Assembly: GCA_014384025.1 (NCBI GenBank)
Contig: JACNGQ010000140.1
Span: forward strand, 1,808-36,341
Length of the DNA: 34,534 nucleotides
Source of the DNA: Planctomycetota bacterium
Lineage (GTDB): Bacteria > Planctomycetota > Phycisphaerae > Sedimentisphaerales > Anaerobacaceae
Direction: 5' to 3'
The translations under genes were made by a program, and so were the position numbers. The notes under the pieces are model-generated. The model was given only the letters and a program-made list of their open reading frames with translations. It was not told where the DNA came from and did no database searches. Below, piece after piece: positions 186 through 2,164 of this stretch (position 1 is the first letter of the stretch; every line of letters starts with the position of its first letter).

Positions 186-1841
186 ATGCCGAGGCGAGAC
201 AATTCAAAAAAGCTGACAATCGTAGAAGTTGTAATTGTAGTTTTAGTGTGCCTGTTTCTTTTAGGCATCGTACCTCTGGCCCTCCAACAAAGTCGAAACG
301 ATGCTTCCCGTGTCACATGCAACAGGAATCTATCCGAGATAGGCAAGGCGATGATTATCTATGCAAATGACTACGATGAAGAGTTGCCGCGAGCCGGAAG
401 CAGAAACAGTATTTGGAGTATGGCGATACCGAACTGGAAGGCCGACAACCGATTTTACGCTTACTATTTACTTTCCGACGGCAGCGGCGGCCAGGCAACC
501 ATCACATCCAGCTTCTACCTTCTGGTAAAGTATGCCGAGGTATCACCCAAAACTTTTGTTTGTCCGGGTGACAAGGGAGCAACTGAATTTAAGCCATCTG
601 ATTACGGAGAAAATGATAGCGACATTCTAAAGTTCTGGGATTTTGGCGATTTGCCATCGGGACATTGCAGCTATTCCTACCATATGCCGTATGGTCTTTA
701 CGCCCTGAATACATCGAGTGAACCGGGTATGGCGGTAGCGGCCGACCGGAATCCATGGATTAGCTCTTTCGAAGAAGCAAAACCTTATAACCTGCTGAGT
801 TCATACAATCCTGATGGGAGTAAAAAAGAAATCAAGAAGGGAAATTCCGTAACTCATAAGGAGAAAGGACAGAATGTCCTGTTTCTTGACGGCCATGTAA
901 GTTTTAAAGAAAGCCCACTATGTGGGATTAACAACGATAACATATACACTTACTGGGATGGTGGAGATATTCGAAGAGGTGGTTATCCTTTTGTTTCAGC
1001 GAGTGAACAAAGAGATGTATCGGATTCGTACCTTGTAAACGAACCGGGGGCATATAGAACAATAACAAATAAAGAGGTTAGGAGCATAAATTCAACCGAC
1101 CTTAAAGAGAGTTCGGTCGTAGCGACACTTGATTGCCCCATGCCGGAGAATAACAACGTTATCTGGTGCTCTACATTTCAGATGGCCTGGGACAGGCTCA
1201 AGAATGACATCATTGGCGAGCCGGTCAAGGTTCCGGAAGCTGAGGAATTAGCTGAACGTCTGAACAATGCTGAGGTCTCAAAAACAGACCTACAGGAAGA
1301 ATCATTCTACTCGGCAGCCGGCATTGTGAAAGACGGCATTATCGAAGAAATAATGACAGAGATGAAAAAGCGTTTTCCTTCTCAATCGGAGCCTGACTTT
1401 TCAAAGCTTGACAAATTGACAAAAAAGATGAGAGAAGAAACGATTGTAACCTATTCATTTTTAGATGTTAAATTCGATTTCAAGAAACCATTCCATAATA
1501 ACGACAGCAAATTTACCTTCAAAGCCTCAAACGGTAAAGGCACGGCTGTAACATCGTTTGGGACAGGTAAAAAAGATTGGGACGCAGAAGTTGCCGAGCA
1601 AGTTGATATTCTCTATTACAAGCATATCGAATATCCGGACAAGGCAGATTTTGTGGTTGACTTATGTAAATATACAGAGCCTTACCAGGTTGTATTAGCA
1701 CTTTTACCTCGACGAGACACACTCCGTGAGATGGTAGATGCAGTTGAGCAGAAGATAGCAGAATTCAAACATGATCCGCATTATGAACAACTACGTAAGC
1801 TCAAATCCTCGGGAGCTAATTTTGGACCTCCTGTACTTTGA
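186..1841 (+). CDS. Pseudopilin-like protein with C-terminal serpin-like region (frameshifted, part 1)
   Basis: The 551-residue product begins with a type IV pilin-like N-terminus: a short basic leader, then LTIVE and a hydrophobic helix (about residues 12-33). The Gly normally at the -1 cleavage position is Lys9. The region up to about residue 245 resembles planctomycete H-x9-DG pseudopilins: H224 is followed by NVLFLDGHV with D235-G236, a spacing of ten residues rather than nine. From about residue 305 the protein changes character and looks like a serpin core: ENNNVIW near the N-terminus, a PF..F...G....V..F strand region, then VVLALLPRR and a helix. The frame stops at 1839-1841, before the serpin hinge and reactive loop, which continue in the next frame. 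Start chosen on AGGGAG 7 nt upstream. The pseudopilin call is firm; the serpin call is inferred from residue patterns only. Confidence 0.7.
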   Translation: MPRRDNSKKLTIVEVVIVVLVCLFLLGIVPLALQQSRNDASRVTCNRNLSEIGKAMIIYANDYDEELPRAGSRNSIWSMAIPNWKADNRFYAYYLLSDGSGGQATITSSFYLLVKYAEVSPKTFVCPGDKGATEFKPSDYGENDSDILKFWDFGDLPSGHCSYSYHMPYGLYALNTSSEPGMAVAADRNPWISSFEEAKPYNLLSSYNPDGSKKEIKKGNSVTHKEKGQNVLFLDGHVSFKESPLCGINNDNIYTYWDGGDIRRGGYPFVSASEQRDVSDSYLVNEPGAYRTITNKEVRSINSTDLKESSVVATLDCPMPENNNVIWCSTFQMAWDRLKNDIIGEPVKVPEAEELAERLNNAEVSKTDLQEESFYSAAGIVKDGIIEEIMTEMKKRFPSQSEPDFSKLDKLTKKMREETIVTYSFLDVKFDFKKPFHNNDSKFTFKASNGKGTAVTSFGTGKKDWDAEVAEQVDILYYKHIEYPDKADFVVDLCKYTEPYQVVLALLPRRDTLREMVDAVEQKIAEFKHDPHYEQLRKLKSSGANFGPPVL

Positions 1842-2164
1842 TAGTTCCTGATACTCTATATAATTTGACACATCAGTATAAAGAGCTAATTGGGAAGAAA
1901 ATCAAAAACCCGAATTACTGGAATTATTGGTTTCTTATCGCCAGACAGATGATAAATTTCTCACTCAGCCGGACCGGTGTAACGCTAAAGTCGGAAAGCA
2001 TGCTTGCTCCTGCCCCTCCAGCAGCAAGGCTGGGCTTGCCAAGACGCCTACATTGCAACAGGCCTTTTCTTATCTACGTCAAGAAACGGCAGGGGGGAAC
2101 TGATCCATTTTTCGTAATGTGGGTGGACAACGCCGAGCTTATGCAGGAATTTGAAAGTAAATAA
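1838..2164 (+). CDS. C-terminal serpin-like fragment (frameshifted, part 2)
   Basis: This 108-codon frame overlaps the previous stop by four bases (TTGA at 1838-1841) and carries what the preceding ORF lacks. LIVPDTLYNLTHQYKEL resembles the serpin strand and helix before the hinge, FSLSRTGVTLKSESM is hinge-like, and LHCNRPFLIYV (nucleotides about 2048-2080) fits the serpin family signature, hydrophobic-x-hydrophobic-[DN]-[RK]-P-F-hydrophobic. The stretch after the hinge, APAPPAARLGLPRR, would be the reactive-site loop. The most economical reading is one gene of about 660 codons broken by loss of one base near the TTT at 1837-1839, or a sequencing error there. Translational coupling from the TTGA overlap is possible but would give an incomplete fold. 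A separate small gene is unlikely. Confidence 0.6.
   Translation: MIVPDTLYNLTHQYKELIGKKIKNPNYWNYWFLIARQMINFSLSRTGVTLKSESMLAPAPPAARLGLPRRLHCNRPFLIYVKKRQGGTDPFFVMWVDNAELMQEFESK

Follow-up and report, generated by a model that had tools for sequence, protein, structure and literature searches.

The DNA analysed here, referred to as the window, is a stretch of 34,534 nucleotides on contig C27 of a planctomycete genome (6.69 Mb in 448 contigs). Its first part carries two overlapping open reading frames that differ by -1 in frame, with the stop codon of ORF1 overlapping the TTG start of ORF2 in the sequence TTGA (Table 1). The break falls just before strand s6A of a serpin-like domain. An initial annotation of this DNA had reported the two ORFs at these positions, where they are indeed present, and had proposed that they represent a single gene broken by a frame change, a proposal borne out by homologues that cross the junction without a gap in a single open frame. 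When 392 genomes of the phylum were searched with the read-through C-terminal part, domain homologues were found in 20 genomes at E<=1e-9, the source genome included, and in most of these a single open frame spans the parts equivalent to ORF1 and ORF2. Scanning species-representative contigs yielded 53 homologue loci, dozens of homologues are continuous in one frame at the ORF1/ORF2 junction, and unbroken homologues exist in other planctomycetes. Furthermore, wherever a full-length homologue was examined, its ORF1 and ORF2 parts were joined, contrary to what would be seen if ORF2 were always an independent gene.

Table 1. Features of the two-ORF locus (positions in the window)
Feature	Position	Strand	Remarks
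ORF1, 551 aa: pilin scaffold and first ~250 residues of the serpin-like domain	186..1841	+	ends with TGA at 1839-1841
Pilin scaffold, ~286 residues, ending ...DSYLVNE	186..1043	+	same-scaffold proteins without a fused domain stop there (...DSFLVND)
N-terminal hydrophobic helix of prepilin origin, KK-LTIVEVVIVVLVCLFLLGIVPLAL	213..284	+	Lys at the place of prepilin Gly(-1), Glu5 kept; no TIGR02532 match
Serpin-like domain, first part, up to just before s6A	1089..1838	+	homologue alignment, models
Frame-change point CTTTGA	1836..1841	+	frame 0 stops, -1 frame goes on; homologues unbroken (gap-free against L029/L059 and others)
ORF2, 108 aa: C-terminal part of the serpin-like domain (s6A, s5A, hinge, loop, s4B, s5B)	1838..2164	+	-1 frame
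Hinge-equivalent P15-P8, GVTLKSES	1976..1999	+	all 62 members have Gly at P15; Leu/Val at P12 and Ser at P10
Variable loop after the hinge, MLAPAPPAARLGLPRRL	2000..2050	+	29% mean pairwise identity
Serpin signature-like segment LHCNRPFLIYV (s4B)	2048..2080	+	pattern fit; PDB profile matches end here

ORF1 and ORF2 belong to one gene that a frame change of one base has divided; the break may stem from assembly or sequencing or may be a natural mutation of recent date. Five same-genus genomes contain no copy of the gene at E<=1e-5. Among 37 strongly conserved positions of the family (>=85% conserved), 35 are kept in the window protein, the two exceptions being a Thr-to-Ser change and the X placed at the junction. 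Since the ORF2 part is conserved no less than the ORF1 part of the domain (60% versus 50% identity to the homologue L085) and the strongly conserved residues are kept, there is no decay behind the break. It is conceivable, if somewhat doubtful, that the frame change arose naturally and left a pseudogene in the source organism. This would agree with the in-frame stop itself and with other damaged copies in the family, namely an internal stop in the member L090, an in-frame TAG in a match from G786 and a 5'-rearranged copy in G702. However, the lesion is a single one, all strongly conserved residues behind it are kept in a part that is the more similar to L085, and the data fit an error of the assembly, or a change that happened very recently, at least as well. 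Far harder to credit is a functional split, in which the ORFs would be translated separately via the TTGA stop-start overlap, or joined by programmed -1 frameshifting, to give a two-chain or regulated serpin. Apart from the overlap of the ORF1 stop with a TTG start, the evidence runs against it: full-length homologues all read through this point in a single frame, an export signal is missing from ORF2 although the remainder of the protein is exported, and no split conserved in other species was found. Programmed frameshifting was rejected on sequence grounds, as the junction (A-CTT-TGA) contains no X-XXY-YYZ slippery heptamer, and prfB-like +1 shifting was likewise rejected, the +1 reading reaching a stop after three codons.

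The serpin-like domain had been described as running across both ORFs, and homologues do align to it without a break, although only family profiles, and not single window sequences, detect serpins. Single-sequence searches of Pfam, NCBIfam and PDB with the window proteins (E<=1 to 10) returned no serpin, and the window ORFs gave nothing against PF00079 at E<=1. In contrast, a profile of 47 family members matched serpins only among PDB entries at E<=0.01, with PAI-1 as the best match (E 1.4e-6), and a 19-member profile gave a similar result. Thirteen of the 19 members match PF00079 singly below its cut-off, and a stretch of a member from G090 (G090:C98) lies just above it (27.8 versus 27 bits); in most members, the family reaches no Pfam cut-off. 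Alignment of the family with 11 serpins of the phylum by hhalign gave a weak local match over 64 C-terminal columns (probability 13, E 0.002). Profile-level sequence similarity to serpins is confined to the last ~90 residues, with nearly all members below the Pfam cut-off. The suggestion that the s4B segment fits the serpin signature holds as well for the PROSITE-type pattern, to which 50 of 62 family members conform, versus 2 of 491 background ORFs, which were taken from the retrieved loci. The family ranges over Planctomycetota, Hydrogenedentota and others, and rarely Firmicutes. One member has a cultured source (L101, from the isolate Clostridium polyendosporum JCM 30710; 28% identity to L059) and has the best single-sequence Pfam serpin score (E 4.2e-4) among the members listed individually. 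A distant member (L112, 23% identity) sits behind a lipobox-like start on a viral-collection contig, IMGVR_UViG_3300020147_000035.

The fold was examined in AlphaFold2 models of two homologues, L085 at full length and L059 as the domain alone, which were based on 47 sequences for the domain; the domain of the window protein is 50-60% identical to that of L085. In the L085 model, the domain has a pLDDT of ~90 and the pilin part is unreliable (pLDDT 25-50, three sequences), while the L059 domain model reaches a pLDDT of 95.7 and a pTM of 0.90. The top Foldseek matches of both are all serpins (E 3e-8 for L085 and 1.7e-10 for L059). Residues 312-647 of L085 superpose on cleaved serpins with a VIA Z of 18.0 (rmsd 4.5-4.6, 279-288 aligned residues), and residues 19-307 of L059 superpose on serpins with a VIA Z of 14.7 (rmsd 4.7-4.9, 247-256 aligned), the best structural matches of both models being cleaved or loop-inserted serpins. 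The predicted fold is therefore that of a serpin for both L085 and L059, rather than the absence of a serpin fold that would have spoken against the initial annotation, and the C-terminal domain can be regarded as a remote serpin whose fold is secure as far as prediction goes. In the L059 model, the C-terminal 37 residues (308-344) do not superpose on solved serpins despite their high pLDDT, and the best Foldseek match of this model is the alpha-1-antitrypsin trimer 3t1p, which we take to be C-terminally swapped. Together, these model features give a weak hint of C-terminal strand exchange. Conservation across the family is also highest in residues 308-344 of L059 (PFL...PFFVMWVDNAELL).

The N-terminal part of the protein is shared with three paralogues from its own genome (L002, L003 and L004) at 59-62% identity over residues 6-287, which indicates common descent with planctomycete pilin-like scaffolds. 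The pilin-like N-terminus that had been noted is thus upheld, since two of the three paralogues also match prepilin motif models: L002 and L003 have a canonical GFTLVE prepilin site and match both PF07963 and TIGR02532, while L004 is without the canonical motif. The DG motif is present too, with a spacing of H-X10-DG that is one residue over the usual H-X9-DG. PF07596 is above its cut-off in L085 and L047 and weak in the window protein; ~80 places of the DUF1559/H-X9-DG type are found in its own genome (E<=0.01). At E<=1e-20, the scaffold itself occurs in 155 of 397 genomes of the class. Scaffold proteins in related genomes mostly end at or soon after ...DSFLVND, which is the place where the extra domain of the window protein starts. 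The scaffold is also found in other combinations. In four proteins, two of the source genome (L002:1480-2763 and L003:1087-2373, contig C292) and two of relatives (L154 and L159), an intact prepilin site is followed by the scaffold and a C-terminal Hint-like domain, which resembles PT-HINT (PF07591) below the cut-off (E 2.6e-4 and 5.5e-6); these proteins end after the Hint-like domain, with the usual released cargo absent. In L004:1471-2607 (own genome, C278) and in L156, L157, L162 and L164 from relatives, a zinc ribbon and a DUF4190 membrane segment replace the prepilin helix, and the globular part of the scaffold is therefore used with several different anchors.

Fusions of the pilin scaffold with the serpin-like domain are present in at least six relatives of the same family. 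Five of these are complete and unbroken in a single frame, at ~650-670 aa, with two copies in G764 (L184, identical to L087, and L204) and one each in G766 (L185, identical to L085), G784 (L187) and G711 (L188); another, L190 from G628, lacks its 5' end at a contig edge. In a FastTree tree, all fusions form one clade with a support of 1.0, within which the window protein branches first, and helix-only forms (L189/L191), in which the helix is kept and the globular pilin part is gone, are nested inside this clade. This topology points to a single fusion, followed by later loss of the globular pilin part with retention of the helix. A DUF1559-serpin-like protein, L047, is independent of this clade (PF07596, E 1.1e-28). 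Among other arrangements, the N-terminus of L040 and L041 resembles an ECF sigma factor (Sigma70_r2/r4 in L040) and is linked to the serpin-like domain by a short hydrophobic stretch, which suggests transmembrane signalling arrangements, and L086:342-2078 has a lipobox and serpin-like domain followed by a dual-specificity/tyrosine phosphatase domain. Tandem serpin-like genes, one of them apparently broken or 5'-rearranged, occur at G764:C34, G786:C306, G702:C260 and G744:C166 and point to local duplication and turnover. In the gene neighbourhoods of the homologues, no partner recurred among 74 neighbours, the commonest being peptidase M20 (3/74). Three CorC/HlyC-type matches (L049, L050 and L052) were dropped as chance matches involving the helix only.

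When the N-terminal helices of the fusions are compared, it is evident that the glycine recognised by prepilin peptidase is frequently lost. The residue at -1 is Lys in the window protein and L184, Arg in L185, Asn in L204 and Gly in L187 and L188, so Gly(-1) is replaced in four of six fusions with a readable N-terminus, while an acidic residue at position 5 is found in all six. The window protein matches neither TIGR02532 nor PF07963 and falls short of a class III signal peptide, which combines Gly(-1) with a hydrophobic residue at +1 and Glu5 ahead of a hydrophobic helix. Similarly, the fusions tested have no TIGR02532 match, whereas L002, L003, L124 and L154 do. Because Gly(-1) is lost in the window protein and most fusions, the tether is probably a former prepilin that now serves as an uncleaved membrane anchor, judging from sequence; against this, two of the six fusions keep Gly(-1), and prepilin processing may occur in some of them. 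Display by a pilin, as initially envisaged, thus stands with regard to the pilin-derived scaffold, but for the helix a pilin role is less likely than that of a simple membrane anchor.

The features expected of a protease inhibitor were sought in the hinge, shutter and breach of the domain. Inhibitory serpins have E-x-G-T-E-A-A-A-A at P17-P9 (PMC8233489). The window protein has R-T-G-V-T-L-K-S-E at these positions, and the family hinge is G-A/V-x-L-x-S-E-A in place of G-T-E-A-A-A-A (n=62; P17 Arg in 33 and Glu in 24, P15 Gly in 62, P14 Ala in 45 and Val in 15, P12 Leu in 46 and Val in 11, P10 Ser in 58, P9 Glu in 40). The shutter and breach residues S53, S56, N186, W194 and H334 (antitrypsin numbering), as equated through the PAI-1 profile alignment and motif order, are mostly replaced by Cys, Phe, Ala/Ser, Phe and Gln, respectively. 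Gln occupies the H334 position in 98%; PAI-1, which is known for spontaneous loop insertion, also has Gln there (Gln319), and Q319L is one of four changes in its latency-resistant variant 14-1B (PMC7782431). In both models, the hinge is already inserted in sheet A as a strand beside s5A (L059 293-306; L085 591-600). AlphaFold has been reported to force the native state on antithrombin even against experiment (PMC11226102), so the predicted insertion would not be the expected artefact. The loop past the hinge changes fastest, with a pairwise identity of 29%, while the core reaches 54% and the strands past the loop 68%. This suggests recognition of a variable partner, but would also be compatible with the bait loop of an inhibitor.

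These observations bear on two further readings of the protein. It is possible that the domain is a functional inhibitory serpin, in which an exposed loop would be cut and the protease trapped, with the anchor allowing it to guard the envelope from foreign or own proteases. The serpin fold, a P15 that is Gly throughout, the small size of P14 (Ala/Val), P10 (Ser) and P8 (Ala/Ser), which could allow their burial during insertion, a length of 23-34 residues after P15 that is near that of the usual serpin loop, and the rapid evolution of the loop relative to the core are all in its favour. On the other side are the missing T-E-A-A-A-A with Leu/Val at P12, the replaced shutter and breach residues, the loop-inserted models, and the neighbourhoods, in which no protease class recurs beside the gene (M20 three and M28 two of 74, both metallopeptidases). 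Owing to the non-canonical hinge, shutter and breach as well as the inserted models, protease inhibition, which the initial annotation had assumed, is considered possible but less likely, and we regard an inhibitory serpin as an unlikely explanation overall. A comparably low probability attaches to the fusion being a functional type IV pilin of the modular kind, which prepilin peptidase would cleave and a pilus or pseudopilus would carry. The pilin scaffold with its constant acidic residue 5, the Gly(-1) of L187 and L188, and a Peptidase_A24 gene in the source genome would be compatible with it, and grafted modules are common among modular pilins (PMC8179133). However, Lys, Lys, Arg or Asn stands at Gly(-1) in the window protein, L184/L087, L185/L085 and L204, the fusions tested leave TIGR02532 unmatched, helix-only descendants exist, and most other family members reach the envelope by an ordinary N-terminal transmembrane helix (a single segment) or a lipobox, as judged by eye.

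The reading we favour, with fair though not high confidence, is that of a non-inhibitory serpin-fold domain in the loop-inserted state, with a hypervariable loop, displayed at the membrane on a decayed-pseudopilin anchor, derived from one fusion and encoded by a gene with one frame change. The single gene would yield an exported, membrane-anchored protein of ~660 residues, whose helix and ~286-residue scaffold appear to stem from a planctomycete DUF1559/H-X9-DG pseudopilin with a decayed prepilin cleavage site. Presumably, the helix remains uncleaved and anchors the protein in the membrane, the remainder lying outside. According to the tree, the divergent serpin-fold domain of ~345 residues was added by a single fusion event, which took place in the common ancestor of one clade of the family. 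Sequence and models suggest that this domain folds directly to a relaxed-like state in which the hinge is already strand 4 of sheet A, so it would not act as a suicide inhibitor, and the fast-changing loop past the hinge could provide a recognition surface for a ligand or protein partner. More tentatively, the family as a whole might be a widespread serpin branch that folds straight to the relaxed, loop-inserted state and serves, displayed on the membrane, as a module for recognition or assembly. Such a module would have been attached to DUF1559 anchors on more than one occasion and could perhaps link molecules by C-terminal strand exchange.

With this family, the serpin superfamily gains a highly divergent branch that has gone unnoticed in free-living bacteria and is tied to membrane anchors. 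If it is relaxed by design, this would bear on the origin of the serpin trap mechanism, as the fold would serve without metastability. Furthermore, a pilin module that has probably become a simple membrane anchor would go uncounted in surveys of modular pilins that rely on motifs. In the open-access literature, we found no paper that links serpins to pilins or planctomycetes in such a way, and no description of this serpin branch or of its union with a degenerate pilin. As kinds, the serpin fold and the modular pilin (PMC8179133) are both known.

The closest known system is the serpin superfamily (PF00079), with PAI-1 nearest by profile and cleaved PAI-1, cleaved corticosteroid-binding globulin and thermopin (1mtp) nearest by fold. 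The domain shares with serpins the fold over nearly its whole length, the order s3A, s6A, s5A, hinge, s4B, s5B, the C-terminal signature and Gly at P15, and with PAI-1 the Gln at the shutter position. It differs in its identity of 10-16%, in the replacement of S53, S56, N186 and W194, in a hinge other than E-x-G-T-E-A-A-A-A, in its length (~345 versus ~370 residues) and in a predicted loop that is already inserted. The prokaryotic serpins of groups S-U and the hub serpins (for example thermopin, miropin, tengpin and chloropin; PMC8233489) have in common with it a bacterial, often exported serpin fold; they keep the canonical hinge, shutter and breach motifs, which was that survey's own selection criterion, whereas the family described here departs from them. 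The source genome also encodes a true serpin, L058, with an EEGTEAAAAT hinge and 433 bits to PF00079, in contrast to the window ORFs. On the pilin side, modular type IV pilins, such as PilB and PilC of Streptococcus sanguinis among 264 architectures, similarly carry a bulky functional module behind a pilin module, unlike most of the present fusions in retaining the cleavage motif; owing to that loss, the fusions would escape a survey based on IPR012902, and a serpin-like module was not found reported among modular pilins within the part of that survey consulted (PMC8179133). The N-terminal scaffold belongs with the planctomycete DUF1559/H-X9-DG prepilin-like proteins, from which the window protein differs by its H-X10-DG spacing, degenerate prepilin site and added serpin-like C-terminal domain. 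Since the defining features of both an inhibitory serpin and a bona fide type IV pilin are lacking, the window protein is classified as neither, and is instead placed among divergent serpin-fold proteins.
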